NCBI RefSeq assembly: GCF_032191465.1
Contig: NZ_JAQOUE010000001.1
Span: 1,302,001-1,366,000, forward strand
Reading direction: 5' to 3'
Source of the DNA: Candidatus Nitronereus thalassa
GTDB taxonomy: Bacteria > Nitrospirota > Nitrospiria > Nitrospirales > UBA8639
Length of the DNA stretch: 64,000 nucleotides
Shown: positions 224 to 23,094 of the stretch, in pieces
Layout of the letters: every line of letters starts with the position of its first letter
Numbering within the stretch: position 1 is the stretch's first letter
The notes under the pieces: generated by a model
Told to the model about the DNA's origin: nothing
Seen by the model: the letters and a program-made list of their open reading frames with translations, nothing else
Databases searched by the model: none
Made by a program: the position numbers and the translations under genes

Positions 224-868
224 TTAGTTAAAACCAAATTCGCCAAGGATGTCGTCCACCAAATTTTGTTCCAACGCCGTTTTGTTCGAAGCTTCTAATT
301 GTTTAAGCATTTCATGGCCTCGACCGTCTTGCTTCGATTTTATTTCATCCTGCTTCAATCCAAATACCACCACCAGCTTCAGCAGCTTGTGTTGAATGTC
401 TTCCAAGATCGTCACCAATTTCTTCACTCGCTGGGCCACTAAGTCTTGGAACGACAAGGCGACGGTGATTTCCATAAGCTGGGCTTCATCCTGCCCCAAC
501 CTCTGGATCACGGAGGCAATCCGCTCTCGAGCCGGCCCCTGGTCTTCTGCACCCGCCAAAAGCGTTTGCGTCTCTTCCAAAGACTTCATGACCGTGGCGC
601 GACTGTCCAAAATCTTTTCCGTCAAACTCATGACTTTATGGGTGCCCTCTTCAGTCATGGTCGCCAGTTCTTGTAAAAAATTATTGGCATCTGGTAGCGT
701 GCTGGCCGTCGACGCCACTGGTGATTCCATATCACGAATCGCCCGTGTAGTTGCTTCCACAAATTTCGCCAACTCCCCGAGTTCTTCATAGATCGTCCGA
801 TCTTCAGCCGATTCCAAAGGCGTAGGATCTTCCTTCTCTTCCGTCTCAAAACTGCGGTCCATCAACAT
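224..868 (-). CDS. cheZ: CheZ, CheY-P phosphatase
   Basis: Cytoplasmic phosphatase that speeds dephosphorylation of CheY-P. The 214-residue product is mostly helical. Near residues 139-150 it has the catalytic motif SFQDLVAQRVKK, with Asp142 and Gln146 matching the D-x-x-x-Q pair of E. coli CheZ (Asp143/Gln147). The C-terminus VDDILGEFGFN matches the CheY-binding tail of the family. The start is the second in-frame ATG, at 868: the AAGGGAG ribosome site abuts the first ATG (874) but sits six bases before this one. It follows cheY by about 50 bases, so substrate and phosphatase are probably co-transcribed. Confidence 0.93.
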   Translation of the reverse strand: MLMDRSFETEEKEDPTPLESAEDRTIYEELGELAKFVEATTRAIRDMESPVASTASTLPDANNFLQELATMTEEGTHKVMSLTEKILDSRATVMKSLEETQTLLAGAEDQGPARERIASVIQRLGQDEAQLMEITVALSFQDLVAQRVKKLVTILEDIQHKLLKLVVVFGLKQDEIKSKQDGRGHEMLKQLEASNKTALEQNLVDDILGEFGFN

Positions 869-918
869 GAGCATCTCCCTTGGTCGTAAGTTTTCCAGTC
901 AGGATATCTATGTGTGAA

Positions 919-12787: not shown

Positions 12788-13381
12788 TTAGAAAAGCGTC
12801 ACATCACCAGCACTAACTTCTTTTTCAACAATCTGCTGGTATTGCTGTTCTTCTTTCACAATCTGTTGTCGTTGAATACCATCCAGTTTCTTTAATAGCA
12901 CTCTCCCAGATTCCGTAAAGTAATAGACCTTTCGCGGACACACGTCTCCGACATCAGCCTTGATAGGCTGCATACCTTCACGCTCCAAGTATTCTAGGGC
13001 CCACGCTGCATTTTTCGCCCCGACATCATTCCGACCTTCATAAATTTTTCCACCGCCAAACACCTTCACTTCAAAGCGACTCTTGTGGCCTCCTTGTCCC
13101 AACAATTCATTTACGAGTACTTCCATGGCATAACTACCATACCGCGCCGAAGGGCCCCAATGATCGTTTTCCACGTTTCCGCTAGGCGAAGCCAACATAA
13201 AATGATTCATACCGCCGATTTTGGTAACGGTATCCCTGATACACACCGAAATGCACGATCCGAGAACCGTATACACCACCATGGGCGCCCGACTCACAAA
13301 AAACTCGCCCGGCATAATCACGGCAATTTCATGAGGAAACCGCATATCTCGCATTCGCCGTATATGGCCAAACTCCATCAC
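12788..13381 (-). CDS. cheD: CheD, receptor glutamine deamidase
   Basis: A 197-residue CheD. The catalytic Cys is in TVLGSCISVCI (Cys43) and the His in GGMNHFML (His60). The start is either GTG at 13381 or the adjacent ATG at 13378, both behind a GAGGGAAG ribosome site. After the CheD fold comes a Glu/Gln-rich extension (about 165-190) ending GDVTLF. The last four residues VTLF also end the receptor-like protein at 20899-22029. Family role: deamidates receptor glutamines and in some species works with CheC; no CheC was seen here. Confidence 0.95.
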   Translation of the reverse strand: MMEFGHIRRMRDMRFPHEIAVIMPGEFFVSRAPMVVYTVLGSCISVCIRDTVTKIGGMNHFMLASPSGNVENDHWGPSARYGSYAMEVLVNELLGQGGHKSRFEVKVFGGGKIYEGRNDVGAKNAAWALEYLEREGMQPIKADVGDVCPRKVYYFTESGRVLLKKLDGIQRQQIVKEEQQYQQIVEKEVSAGDVTLF

Positions 13382-14663: not shown

Positions 14664-15206
14664 TTATCGCATTCTGACGATAATTGCCCCCATGAAATCT
14701 CCCTTTTTCCAATCCTTCTTCGTCGTTTTGGGATGTTTATTATGACAATCGGCACACCCTTCAACAATAGCAAAATCCGCAGACATGCCTTTTGTCATAT
14801 TTCCATCTTCAAACGTCACCATTTTCTCTTTCCCGCTGGCCAGAGCCGCCAGCATTTCTTTTTCCTTGTCGGTCTTCGCCGCATTGGACGAGTACAGAGG
14901 ATTAGTCCCAACTAAGGTCAATTCAAAATCCTTAATTTCCGCGCCAATGGCCTTGACATATTGGGCAGGAAGCATAATCGAATGATCTTCCTTGACCCAA
15001 TCTTCATTAGGGCTCACGCCGCCCTTCTTAGCCTTGCCAATAATACCTTTGACATAAACTGTTCTCGCTGCTTTCGCGGTCGCAAGAATGTACTTAATCG
15101 CCGTATCCTTGCTCATGTCAGCCGCTTGGCCAGACGAAACAATAACGCCTGTCGCAAATACCACACCGACTCCCAACAATACCACTGTCTGCAATGTTTT
15201 CCTCAT
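14664..15206 (-). CDS. Periplasmic Tll0287-like (DUF3365) haem c protein
   Basis: A 180-residue protein from the ATG at 15206, which follows the near-perfect ribosome site TAAGGAGGGG. Residues 1-28 are a signal peptide (MRKTLQTVVLLGVGVVFATG). The body resembles the Tll0287-like/DUF3365 sensor fold. One c-type haem site lies near the C-terminus: C151-A-D-C154-H155. These domains are often the periplasmic part of sensor kinases or chemoreceptors; here the domain stands alone. It lies about 110 bases downstream of a chemoreceptor gene with its own sigma-70-like promoter and a strong terminator, so it is probably a single-gene unit. Redox, oxygen or NO sensing is inference. Confidence 0.85.
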   Translation of the reverse strand: MRKTLQTVVLLGVGVVFATGVIVSSGQAADMSKDTAIKYILATAKAARTVYVKGIIGKAKKGGVSPNEDWVKEDHSIMLPAQYVKAIGAEIKDFELTLVGTNPLYSSNAAKTDKEKEMLAALASGKEKMVTFEDGNMTKGMSADFAIVEGCADCHNKHPKTTKKDWKKGDFMGAIIVRMR

Positions 15207-15269
15207 ACATCCCCTCCTTAGGATAATACGGTGAATAGTAAACGCTTTTCCCATTACTGAGGATTGCGT

Positions 15270-15298
15270 ATTCTTTGCCGACTCCCCCTGTATGTCAA
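15270..15298 (-). promoter_or_regulatory. Candidate sigma-70 promoter of the haem c gene
   Basis: Minus strand TTGACA (15293-15298), 17-base spacer, AAGAAT (15270-15275). A perfect -35 and a moderate -10, about 65 bases before the ATG at 15206. Confidence 0.55.
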
Positions 15299-15313
15299 GC
15301 AATATTTACACTC

Positions 15314-18272: not shown

Positions 18273-20381
18273 CTACGCGGCCACACTTTGTCCATTGAGG
18301 GAATGACTGACTAACCCTTGCACATCAACAATCAACGCGACATGACCATCTCCCAGAATCGTCGCGCCGGCAATGCCACCCACTTTTTGATAATTTTGTT
18401 CCAGGCTTTTAATGACGACTTGTTGTTGCCCGACGAGTTCATCCACTAACACGGCCACCCGTTTTCCTTCTGACTCCACAATAACTAATAATGCCTGGCA
18501 AGGATCGGTGACTACCGGTGTTACCTGAAACGCTTCATACAAACGGAGAACCGGAAGCCATTCCCCGCGCAGACCGACTACCTCTCCACGTCCCGCCATG
18601 GTTTGTAATTCCGACCGCTTAGGTTGAATGGTCTCGGTGACAGACAATAGCGGAATAATGTATTGCTCCTCCCCAACGCGAACGGTCATTCCATCCATAA
18701 TCGCTAAGGTGAGAGGAAGTTTGAGCATCAGTCGTGACCCCTTGCCTTCTTGAGTCTGGATGGTCACGGCTCCACCCAACGCTTCAATGTTTCGTTTCAC
18801 GACATCCATACCCACTCCACGACCTGACACATCCGTAATTTTCTCTGCGGTGGAAAAACCCGGCCGGAAGATCAGTTGCCAGACTTGGTCATCGGGCAAG
18901 GTCTCCCCCTCGGAAATCACGCCATTGGCAACGGCTTTTTTCAGGATTTTTTCCCGATTCAAACCTCGCCCGTCATCTTCCACCGTAATGCAGATACTTC
19001 CACCTTCTTGATAGGCATTCAGCCGGATAGTGCCCAACTCACTTTTTCCCTCGGCCTTGCGATCTTCTGGTAACTCCAATCCATGGTCAGCAGAGTTACG
19101 CACTAAATGAGTCAAAGGATCTCCGATAGCCTCAATGACCGTCTTATCGAGTTCCGTTTCCTCACCTGACATGACAAGCTGAATTTGCTTGCCACTTTTT
19201 GACGCCAAATCTCTCACCAAACGTGGGAACCGTTGAAATGCTGTCCCGATGGGTAACATCCGGATAGACATCACCCGTTCTTGCAATTCTCGTGTATTCC
19301 GCTCCAATTGAAGGACTCGCTCTTGAAGAATGGGGAGTTGATCCAAAGTAAATCGTTCTCCTAAATCCGTAATCATGGATTGCGTAATAACTAACTCACC
19401 GACCAAATTAATGAGCTTGTCGATTTTTTCCGTATCCACACGAATCGAGGCCGCTTCACTCTTTTTGACACGAGAGACAGAGTCTTGCTGTTTTTGAAGC
19501 GCTTGCGCGACCTGTTGAGGAGCGACCACCTTGTCCTCGACCAAGATTTCCCCGATTCGCCTTTGTTTATTTAAACTCTCCTCGAGTTGCGCTTGAGTTA
19601 ATGCGCCTTCGTCTACCAGGATTTCGCCCACACGTTTGGTTTCTTGGCTGACAAATGTGGAGACCGGCTGCTCCGTAATCACTAATTCACTTCCATCACG
19701 CACAAAATCAAACACAGCATCGAGTTCTCTCACCGACTTATCCGTCTCCATACGGATCTGCCAGGCCAAGTAGCAGACCTCGGGATCCATCACGGCTAAG
19801 GCAGGCACGCGATTAGTTTTTACTCCCACCTCTAACACTTCCCCGAGTTCGGCGAGATCTTTAATGATGCGAGAAGGATCCAAACCACGCTGAAACAATT
19901 CAGACAACGGCACCCAATCCACACAGAGATGCGTTGGACCGGAAGGTCGAGAAGGAGCGGACGACGTGGCTTGAGGCGAAGAATCCGCTTGTTCTCCCAT
20001 TTGACAGGCCACAAGTTCGTCCTCGATGGGTTTTATTATCTCGGGGTCGAAACTGGCTCCACCTTGTGCCGCATCGAGTAATGACTTCAATGCATCCAAG
20101 CTTCGCAACAACACGTCGATCGTCCCCTGGGTAGCGACCATTTCTTGATTTCGAAGACGATCCAGCACATTCTCCATCTTGTGGGTCAGTTCTCCGATGG
20201 CCGTAAACCCAAACATACCCGCGTTCCCTTTAATGGAATGCGCAGCTCGAAATATTCGATTTAACAGGTCGAGATCATCGGCCCGCTGTTCTAAATCCAG
20301 CAAGCCGGTCTCCATGGTTTCGACATGCTCCGCAGACTCTACAAAAAAAGTTTCCTGAAATCTTGAAAAATCAATGCTCAT
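18273..20381 (-). CDS. cheA: CheA histidine kinase with tandem-repeat insertion
   Basis: A 702-residue chemotaxis kinase. Hpt (1-105) has His48 (RAAHSIKGNAGMFG). The region 150-240 may be a P2-like domain. Next come two copies of a 23-residue repeat (251-273 and 276-298; VGEILVDEGAL and IGEILVEDKVV). Then follow the dimerisation domain (310-375), the HATPase (VRNSADHGLE, DVSGRGVGMDVV) and the CheW-like domain to residue 702. It phosphorylates CheY (20457-20828) and CheB. The repeat resembles the short GEILVxxGxLT units of type II/IV secretion ATPase N-domains; its role in CheA is unknown. This is a different protein from the CheA fragment at 1-113. Confidence 0.95.
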   Translation of the reverse strand: MSIDFSRFQETFFVESAEHVETMETGLLDLEQRADDLDLLNRIFRAAHSIKGNAGMFGFTAIGELTHKMENVLDRLRNQEMVATQGTIDVLLRSLDALKSLLDAAQGGASFDPEIIKPIEDELVACQMGEQADSSPQATSSAPSRPSGPTHLCVDWVPLSELFQRGLDPSRIIKDLAELGEVLEVGVKTNRVPALAVMDPEVCYLAWQIRMETDKSVRELDAVFDFVRDGSELVITEQPVSTFVSQETKRVGEILVDEGALTQAQLEESLNKQRRIGEILVEDKVVAPQQVAQALQKQQDSVSRVKKSEAASIRVDTEKIDKLINLVGELVITQSMITDLGERFTLDQLPILQERVLQLERNTRELQERVMSIRMLPIGTAFQRFPRLVRDLASKSGKQIQLVMSGEETELDKTVIEAIGDPLTHLVRNSADHGLELPEDRKAEGKSELGTIRLNAYQEGGSICITVEDDGRGLNREKILKKAVANGVISEGETLPDDQVWQLIFRPGFSTAEKITDVSGRGVGMDVVKRNIEALGGAVTIQTQEGKGSRLMLKLPLTLAIMDGMTVRVGEEQYIIPLLSVTETIQPKRSELQTMAGRGEVVGLRGEWLPVLRLYEAFQVTPVVTDPCQALLVIVESEGKRVAVLVDELVGQQQVVIKSLEQNYQKVGGIAGATILGDGHVALIVDVQGLVSHSLNGQSVAA

Positions 20382-20456: not shown

Positions 20457-20828
20457 TCACCCTGGCAAAACCTTTTTGATGACTTGCAACATTTGATCGG
20501 GGTTAAAGGGCTTCACAATCCAGCCCGTGGCTCCGGCTGATTGGCCTTCTTTTTTCTTGTCATCCGCCGACTCAGTGGTCAACATGAGTACCGGGGTAAA
20601 TTTGTGAGCCGCCATCCCTCGAATTTCCTTAATAAGAGAAATGCCATCCATATTCGGCATATTGAGATCGGTGATCACCAGGTTAGGTTTTGCACCGCCA
20701 TTGAGTTTGGCAACGGCTTCTTTTCCATCTCCAGCTTCCACGACCTCGAACCCCGCCCCCTTGAGCGTAAACGTTACCATTTGTCGCATGGAGACCGAAT
20801 CATCCACGACTAAAATTGTCTTGCTCAT
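20457..20828 (-). CDS. cheY: CheY-type response regulator, second copy
   Basis: A 123-residue single receiver with acidic residues 9-10, acceptor Asp54 (VITDLNMP), Thr in MLTTESADDKKKEG and Lys in WIVKPF. The TTESADDKKKEGQSAGATGW stretch is typical of CheY-like proteins that sit directly beside CheA. It lies 75 bases upstream of cheA in the same operon. It may serve the motor or act as a phosphate sink. Confidence 0.93.
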   Translation of the reverse strand: MSKTILVVDDSVSMRQMVTFTLKGAGFEVVEAGDGKEAVAKLNGGAKPNLVITDLNMPNMDGISLIKEIRGMAAHKFTPVLMLTTESADDKKKEGQSAGATGWIVKPFNPDQMLQVIKKVLPG

Positions 20829-20898: not shown

Positions 20899-22029
20899 TC
20901 AAAACAACGTTACGTTATCCTCCGATTCGTTCTTCGCCGACACCGTCGTGAGATCTGCGCCTTCTGCAATTGCGTTCATCACGGCTCGCTCAGACTCCAT
21001 GGTATAACTCTCGCCCAGTCCACGAAAAATAGAAGCTGCTTCCAACGCGACTTCCTGCGAGTACCCCTCTTTCTCCATTTTTTTAATGGTCTCCCGAATG
21101 GTCTCAAGAGGCTCATATACATGCTCAATTTTTTGGCGAGTGATATCTTGAAATTGCAATGAGACGACAATGCCCGCGATATCTTGTGCCAACACGTTGG
21201 CTTGGTCTGCACCCCGCGTGACTTTTTCTTCTAATTCCCTGTTGGTTTCCAAAATTGTTTTCGTAAAACCTTTTACTCTTTCCTGGGATTCCAACGTCAC
21301 CGTCATATCAACAGAGGCTAATTCTTCTAATCCATTCATGGCCCCCCGAGTGCATTCGGCAACGCCTTCACACATTTCCCGAATCTGGTTAGCCGCATGT
21401 CGTGATCGATTCGCTAACTTCGTGACCTCCTCAGCCACAACTGCAAACCCACGACCATGCTCACCAGCCCTTGCAGCCTCAATCGCGGCATTGAGTGCTA
21501 ACAGCCGGGTTTGATCTGCAATGAATTCCACCTCTTCAACCATCTGAGAAATCGACGCGGTACTCGTCACGGCTCCCTCCATGACTTGAACCGCTTGCAT
21601 GGTGATTTTTGAAGTTCGGAAGACATCTTGAACAAATCGATCCATGGTCTTGCTCGTTTCTTCCAATATATGTTTCACCGAGTGGATTTCACCAACCTCT
21701 TCAGATTCCTCTGTGTCAGCGACTAATAGCGAGTTCTCTTCCGCCTGTGTTCGTGCGCGTTGTGCAATATCCTGAAAACTCACGATCAATCCATCTGCCG
21801 CCCGACCCGTTTCCTCCACCACCATCTTGAGCTGAGCCACGAGGACCGGGGTCAATTCACTAAGACAAGCTGAAAAATCCTTCCAACTTTGTCGATACGC
21901 CTGATTCTCCTCACATTGTTGCTGACAACAAGCAAGTTGCTCCTCCAGCCAAGCTTGTTTTCTCTTGGCCACCACTCCCCAAGCCACTCCAAGCAGGCCA
22001 ATAAATATTCCGATTATGAGAGGCATCAT
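20899..22029 (-). CDS. Receptor-like protein with MCP signalling tip and CheZ-like motif
   Basis: A 376-residue protein with one N-terminal membrane helix (2-20), no HAMP and no periplasmic domain. The MCP hairpin tip is at about 165-215 ([20 protein letters not shown]). At 290-304 comes [15 protein letters not shown], which aligns with the CheZ helix of this window (ALSFQDLVAQRVKKL) and keeps the catalytic spacing Asp295-x3-Gln299. A degenerate copy, [10 protein letters not shown], is at 83-92. The protein ends EDNVTLF, sharing its last four residues with CheD. It could be a receptor-bound CheY-P phosphatase or simply a soluble-signal receptor; the motif is seen, the activity is inferred. 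It is second in the STAS2 operon. Confidence 0.85.
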
Positions 22030-22060: not shown

Positions 22061-22363
22061 TCACGATTTCATTACTGAGGAGATCGCAGGACCCTCCAAA
22101 AATTTTCCACAGCCAATAACCTCAAACTGCTCTTTGACGGCGGAGGGGACATTGGTAACCTCTAGAATCATTTCCTGGCAGGCAGAGACAACCAATTGGA
22201 CCCCTGATGAATCCATGCGTGAAACGTTGGCCAAATTCAGCTCCAAGTCTCCCGGCTTTTCACTCAAACCCAGGAGAGCCTGACGAAAATCCGCGGCTTC
22301 AAAAATCGTTAATTCACCCTCGGGCTGTAAAATTATGCGGCCGTTCTGTTCTTGAATCGTCAT
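22061..22363 (-). CDS. STAS-domain protein (second copy)
   Basis: A 100-residue STAS domain. The ATG at 22363 is preceded by TTGGAG eight bases away; a longer reading from TTG at 22378 would add five residues. The loop SRMDSSGVQLVV contains the Ser pair of the antagonist family (about Ser52/Ser53). It is the first gene of the operon with the receptor-like protein, cheY, cheA, cheW and the MCP. It is a candidate second substrate of the RsbW-like kinase at 5349-6299; STAS proteins at this position in chemotaxis operons are also known without proven partners. Confidence 0.82.
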   Translation of the reverse strand: MTIQEQNGRIILQPEGELTIFEAADFRQALLGLSEKPGDLELNLANVSRMDSSGVQLVVSACQEMILEVTNVPSAVKEQFEVIGCGKFLEGPAISSVMKS

Positions 22364-23094
22364 TTCTTTGTTCTCCAAGCCTAGACTTCCGAATTCACAA
22401 CGTCACTAACCTGCGGACATTCGGCTCTTCTATCATGAGAAAAACTTTCCCATTCATCCTTTCACTAATATTGGGAAAGCGTCCTGGTTCATCAAAATTG
22501 ACCCTTTTCTATCGGAGTTGACCTATTTCAGCTTAAGACTATTTCCAAAACGTTCGGCATCTAGATAAATATATTTCATTTCACGGTATATGAAACCCAC
22601 GATCAGCATTCTGGTGTTCTTTCAGAATCAGGCCGAAACTCACGTACGGTACTGCCTCTTCAAGGCGCATCGCTCGCCTTCATGGCGACAGGCCACGACT
22701 TCGATAGATAGGAATTTGGTTTTCTAGAGAACTGGAGACAAGAGAGGAGTAGGGTCCATGCCAGGCATCAAACCGTGGGGGCCTAATATGCCGAGGACAT
22801 GTCGCGCACCCAACATCCGAAATATTCCAGATTCGTTCAATCAACGGATTGGGACCTCCAACTTGCAGGCCGTATTCTCCTGCCCGTTTAGGTGTTTAGG
22901 GCTAGCAACAGAACGAGTTAACGTCTTTTATGTTGCCTCATATCTTCTTGAGATGTCTTCGGAGCAAGAAGTATTTACCTTTAGTAGATCATCGTTCAAA
23001 TACTTGCCATACCAAACCTAGGTGCAGTGAATATTGATCACTCGTCTTTCCAACAAAAACATCTATATTGGTGTCATCGCCAGGCAGTCTCTAC
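22364..23094. other. Large intergenic region between STAS2 and the PP2C gene
   Basis: About 730 bases with no convincing gene. It holds a sigma-28-type promoter at 22509-22536. A plus-strand ORF at 22758-23021 (87 residues, with GAGGAG upstream of its ATG) has no recognisable motif and odd composition, and I do not call it. Around 22634-22650 is CACGTACGGTACTG, vaguely like group II intron ends, but no intron structure or reverse transcriptase could be seen. Confidence 0.5.
22509..22536 (-). promoter_or_regulatory. Candidate sigma-28 promoter for the STAS2-che operon
   Basis: Minus strand TTAAG (22532-22536), 15-base spacer, TCCGATAG (22509-22516). Six of eight -10 bases match the FliA consensus. 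About 146 bases upstream of the STAS2 ATG. It would drive STAS2, the receptor-like protein, cheY, cheA, cheW and the MCP. Confidence 0.6.

Follow-up and report, generated by a model that had tools for sequence, protein, structure and literature searches.

The window, a stretch of 64,000 nucleotides from Candidatus Nitronereus thalassa, carries a Nitrospirota chemotaxis/flagellar cluster in the order STAS - candidate receptor-phosphatase gene - CheY - CheA - CheW - MCP ... CheR - CheD - CheB ... CheY - CheZ (Table 1; CheD and CheB were named by sequence recognition, not by family scans). A Tll0287-like gene (Pfam PF11845) at window positions 14664-15302 adjoins an MCP gene of the cluster. The candidate gene is the 376-aa ORF of the original prediction, present as described. 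Among 296 Nitrospirota genomes searched, 54 had a relative at E<=1e-25; together with genome-contig matches this set gave 62 distinct homologues. Of 55 loci, 43 have cheY as the first recognised gene downstream (39 of them within 200 bp), and cheA usually follows. Residues D54, N56, T84, E86 and K106 of the adjacent CheY match D57, N59, T87, E89 and K109 of E. coli CheY.

The CheZ that had been read at 224-868 is a real one, with coordinates extending to 874. A PF04344 match was found in all 54 genomes with the candidate gene, at E<=4e-8 in 52; in the other two (G219 and G295) the match may be the candidate gene itself. Since nearly all genomes with the gene also encode a separate CheZ, the gene supplements CheZ and is not a replacement for it. 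For the same reason, and with the separate CheZ in the same cluster, its predicted activity could be redundant.

Table 1. Genes and protein features of the locus, in window coordinates
Feature	Position	Strand	Basis or remark
Candidate receptor-phosphatase gene ('MCPZ')	20899..22029	(-)	376-aa ORF; PF00015; 62-member family
N-terminal membrane anchor, aa 2-20	21970..22026	(-)	mean Kyte-Doolittle 2.34 over 19 aa
CheZ-like N-terminal arm, aa 55-104	21718..21867	(-)	hhalign vs CheZ
FQD look-alike (earlier 'degenerate copy'), aa 83-92	21754..21783	(-)	F85, I88 conserved; D87 not
MCP signalling hairpin, aa 118-238, nested between both CheZ-like arms	21316..21678	(-)	PF00015; helix breaks in low-confidence model; family alignment gaps
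Receptor tip, aa 180-190	21460..21492	(-)	near-invariant in family
CheZ-like C-terminal arm, aa 243-321	21067..21303	(-)	hhalign vs CheZ
Catalytic-type motif, aa 290-304	21118..21162	(-)	invariant Q292, Q294, D295, Q299 in 62/62
D295 codon	21145-21147	(-)	
Q299 codon	21133-21135	(-)	
YTMESER, aa 342-348, conserved post-helix element	20986..21006	(-)	pattern in 54/62 members; R348 nearly invariant
C-terminal peptide EDNVTLF, aa 370-376	20902..20922	(-)	tail pattern counts
STAS-domain gene upstream	22061..22378	(-)	PF01740 E=4.1e-10; upstream in 9 loci
cheY, directly downstream, proposed substrate	20457..20828	(-)	PF00072
cheA	18273..20381	(-)	sequence; conserved order
cheD	12788..13381	(-)	sequence recognition; C-terminal tail SAGDVTLF
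Separate bona fide CheZ	224..874	(-)	PF04344 E=2.9e-17; contains ALSFQDLVAQRVKKL

Domain layout of the receptor-like protein

The Pfam scan assigned aa 141-273 to MCPsignal (PF00015, E=1.2e-26), and the signalling hairpin was matched in 62/62 family members. By domain content (hairpin plus conserved tip) the protein is an MCP; the tip is presumably its CheA/CheW-binding region. Periplasmic or ligand-binding domains and HAMP domains are typical, though not universal, in MCPs. No Pfam match to any of these was found in the 376-aa protein, which has one membrane segment, at its start; a TM-like N-terminal segment is present in 50/59 homologues.

From the N-terminus, the segments are the anchor, the N-terminal arm (about 55-104), a joint at 105-117, the hairpin, a second joint at 239-242, the arm with the active-site motif, YTMESER, a linker predicted to be non-helical and EDNVTLF. 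Both joints coincide with helix breaks in an AlphaFold model built from a three-sequence alignment (window protein, L006 and L007), of which only the helix breaks were used, its pLDDT of 51.6 being too poor as evidence of fold; length also varies across the family at 105-114. The simplest reading of this layout is that an MCP hairpin is nested inside the hairpin loop of a CheZ. The idea that exactly ten heptads had been added to each arm was dropped because the N-terminal arm has a variable loop at 105-117.

Motif conservation and similarity to CheZ

The motif of the window protein, S290-L-Q-F-Q-D295-I-T-R-Q299, follows the signalling tip as originally proposed. Its Asp and Gln match Asp143 and Gln147, the catalytic pair of CheZ. 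If the receptor tip and its flanks are set aside, no residues other than Q292, Q294, D295 and Q299 are invariant among the 62 homologues, and the initial concern that the Asp/Gln pair might vary in close homologues was not borne out. F293 is kept in 61/62, R298 and E302 in 59/62 and H303 in 54/62. Position 290 is S in 40 and A in 15 of 62, giving a family form [SA]xxFQDxxxQ (S290-xx-F-Q-D295-xxx-Q299 in the window protein) that matches the extended CheZ motif AxxFQ-DxxxQ published with its catalytic residues (PMC7750401). Counted from the tip Asn, the motif Asp lies 115 residues on in 54 members and 117-118 residues on in the remaining 8, and FxDxxxQ occurred in 0/60 ordinary MCPs from the same loci. 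These controls, together with strict invariance amid highly variable coiled-coil columns, rule out a chance match. In a tree built on the signalling hairpin only, without the motif columns, one change parts the ordinary MCPs from all motif-bearing receptors, including those of Pseudomonadota, with SH-aLRT 85 in a tree of few columns and many open forks.

A degenerate copy of the motif had also been noted at aa 83-92. F85 (54/60) and I88 (55/60) are indeed conserved there and appear to be packing residues. The Asp at D87 is not conserved (commonest residues E 8, S 8 and M 7 of 60), so we rejected this segment as a second active site.

Each arm was compared by hhalign with a CheZ profile made from an alignment of Nitrospirota CheZ. 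The C-terminal arm reached a probability of 95.7 and a score of 55.2, against a maximum of 28.1 in 400 column shuffles (half of which kept the heptads) and 22.0 for ordinary-MCP windows. The N-terminal arm alone gave a probability of 78 and a score of 31.9 (shuffle maximum 21.0, ordinary-MCP windows 19.2), and the two arms jointly a probability of 97.6, compared with 12.5 for ordinary MCPs. P61/L67/V70/V71/T74/A77/A78 of the N-terminal arm pair in register with P49/L55/V58/V59/T62/A65/A66 of CheZ (E. coli numbering, counted from the chain sequence). The distance from T74 to D295, leaving out 105-242, is 83 residues; that from T62 to D143 in CheZ is 81. The MCP hairpin occupies the place of the CheZ hairpin loop. 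By hydrophobic moment D295/Q299 lie on the same outer face as the CheZ pair, and the helical-wheel match argues against a buried motif, the second doubt raised at the outset.

Library models, which do not depend on our alignments, point the same way. The Pfam CheZ model weakly matches 45/62 members at E<=0.1 (best E=3e-6), the window protein not being among them, and no member of the 62 was seen above the PF04344 gathering score of 30.7 bits. NCBIfam CheZ models align at the motif (E=0.008-0.016), as does the profile of A1 with E. coli CheZ 1KMI (E=0.11), and the BLAST alignment of the protein with the window's CheZ spans the motif region.

The family thus shares with CheZ (PF04344; E. coli CheZ, PDB 1KMI) the AxxFQ-DxxxQ-type active-site helix, the opposing P..L..VI..TE.AA helix, their spacing and cheY adjacency. 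In contrast to CheZ it is membrane-anchored, carries an MCP hairpin for the CheZ hairpin loop and has another C-terminal tail: the CheZ-type amphipathic CheY-binding helix (ending DDLLxxxGF) is absent, with YTMESER and EDNVTLF instead. Because it falls short of the Pfam threshold and has no such helix, we do not file the protein as a CheZ. It resembles MCPs (PF00015) in the receptor hairpin with conserved tip and the N-terminal membrane anchor; unlike ordinary MCPs it has no ligand-binding or HAMP domain and has the CheZ-like arms and the invariant D/Q pair. The region equivalent to the MCP methylation sites is taken up by these arms.

At the array, the CheZ-like face might bind CheY-P, or a different receiver, without acting on it catalytically, and so buffer or localise it. 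Such a sink or dock would fit the different tail at the place of the CheY-binding helix, the existence of a separate CheZ and the conserved adjacent cheY. However, docking alone needs no invariance of both catalytic residues, as seen in 62/62 members and most Pseudomonadota relatives, and we regard this explanation as unlikely.

Relatives and the C-terminal tail

The wider search combined a strict DNA motif search with a profile of the C-terminal module, which matched 40/299 Pseudomonadota genomes at E<=1e-8. Receptors with this layout also occur in Pseudomonadota, where most relatives keep the catalytic residues; the combination of receptor and CheZ site is thus widespread in two bacterial phyla. 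In L133 and L147 the receptor tip has degenerated and the motif is kept. Stand-alone modules of about 157-196 aa also occur (L134, L135 and L157); in L134 and L135 (about 157-160 aa) the module lies between a ParA-like gene and cheY, directly upstream of cheY. By these arrangements the module is mobile and can exist apart from the receptor, and this speaks for its having its own function. A tblastn search of plasmids with the C-terminal arm gave no match.

Seven Pseudomonadota proteins of about 570-606 aa (L155, L159, L162, L163, L165, L167 and L169) are coiled-coil proteins with no MCP tip; they carry [FY]DDIxxQR, an IELF-like tail and two module-profile matches each, and are possibly a second class of CheZ-like proteins. 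CheW-CheZ fusions of about 390-440 aa were observed in Nitrospirota (L092, L093, L094, L106, L110, L118, L120 and L113). They tie a CheZ phosphatase to the array through fusion with an array component, as the present family would, but that component is a CheW adaptor, not a receptor, and in the first seven the CheZ is canonical, over the Pfam cut-off. CheT of Sinorhizobium meliloti is likewise a distant CheZ-like protein recognised by DxxxQ, and unlike our receptor family it is a separate protein. As told in PMC12654446, CheT was reported to dephosphorylate one CheY (Agbekudzi et al. 2024), and on that account remote CheZ relatives can be active.

Of the 62 family members, 41 end in [VILF]x[LFM]F, as do 13 of the 24 CheD proteins encoded at their loci; no other recognised protein there has this ending. 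L006 has two copies of the tail (QDNVELF...GDNITLF). Sharing of the tail between CheD and the receptor family suggests a recruitment peptide. One idea is that it may recruit CheR, since it agrees with E-W/V-E-x-F, a pentapeptide that has been proposed to bind CheR3 in Vibrio cholerae (PMC11940527); another, by analogy with the CheZ C-terminus, is that it may bind CheY.

The tail pattern bears on a reading that makes the motif a site of helix packing, or of recognition by CheR, CheD or CheB, within the methylation-helix region of an ordinary receptor, and puts its likeness to CheZ down to coiled-coil convergence. The motif does sit at about the level of the methylation helices in MCPs, and CheR, CheB and CheD are all encoded in the cluster. 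The absence of the motif from all 60 ordinary MCPs of the same clusters, the failure of heptad-preserving shuffles to reproduce the similarity of either arm and the occurrence of the module beside cheY without a receptor hairpin nevertheless make this reading quite improbable.

Three shorter paralogues of about 330 aa (L034, L040 and L041) keep the motif and are without YTMESER and the tail; the loci of L034 and L041 have no adjacent CheY, and the next recognised gene there is CheA. Such paralogues would suit an inactive relic of a CheZ fusion retained for array architecture, but the catalytic pair is strictly conserved in two phyla, which makes a relic highly improbable.

Proposed function

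We propose, with a probability of about 0.78, that the protein is an array-anchored, sensor-less chemoreceptor that also serves as a CheZ-type phosphatase acting on the neighbouring CheY, alongside the separate CheZ. The second CheZ-like arm and the adjacent cheY strengthen the original reading of a membrane-anchored receptor-phosphatase, with phosphatase activity itself predicted from sequence. CheZ turns off CheY, the motility signal, and in its mechanism Gln orients the attacking water and Asp positions a Lys of CheY. The present protein very probably works in a similar way. With no sensing domain and with CheZ active-site features on both arms, it probably becomes part of the signalling array and ends the array's signal.

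In a homodimer, each subunit would contribute two antiparallel helices to a four-helix bundle of the CheZ kind, the post-tip helix bearing Asp295 and Gln299 and the pre-tip arm giving the opposing CheZ-like helix. The MCP signalling hairpin, which takes the position of the CheZ loop, would let the protein dock in the CheA/CheW array, where CheY-P from the neighbouring CheA would be dephosphorylated. Gln299 would orient the attacking water and Asp295 would position the conserved Lys of CheY.

A bolder version, to which we hold only tentatively, has one coiled-coil assembly act as CheY phosphatase as well as kinase-controlling receptor. Receptor state would gate the phosphatase, kinase and phosphatase would be controlled reciprocally in one particle, and CheZ and receptors would share a nested-hairpin ancestry.

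In models of chemotaxis, the receptor/kinase and the CheY phosphatase are distinct components that come together at the array through binding. We found no description of a receptor-CheZ combination in open-licence papers, so its novelty is provisional, and current libraries match the family as generic MCP only. Here receptor and CheY phosphatase seem to be one polypeptide, conserved beside its own cheY in Nitrospirota and with relatives in Pseudomonadota. The placement, and possibly the control, of signal termination inside the array becomes a directly testable question, and the layout suggests how receptor hairpins and CheZ-type bundles may be related.
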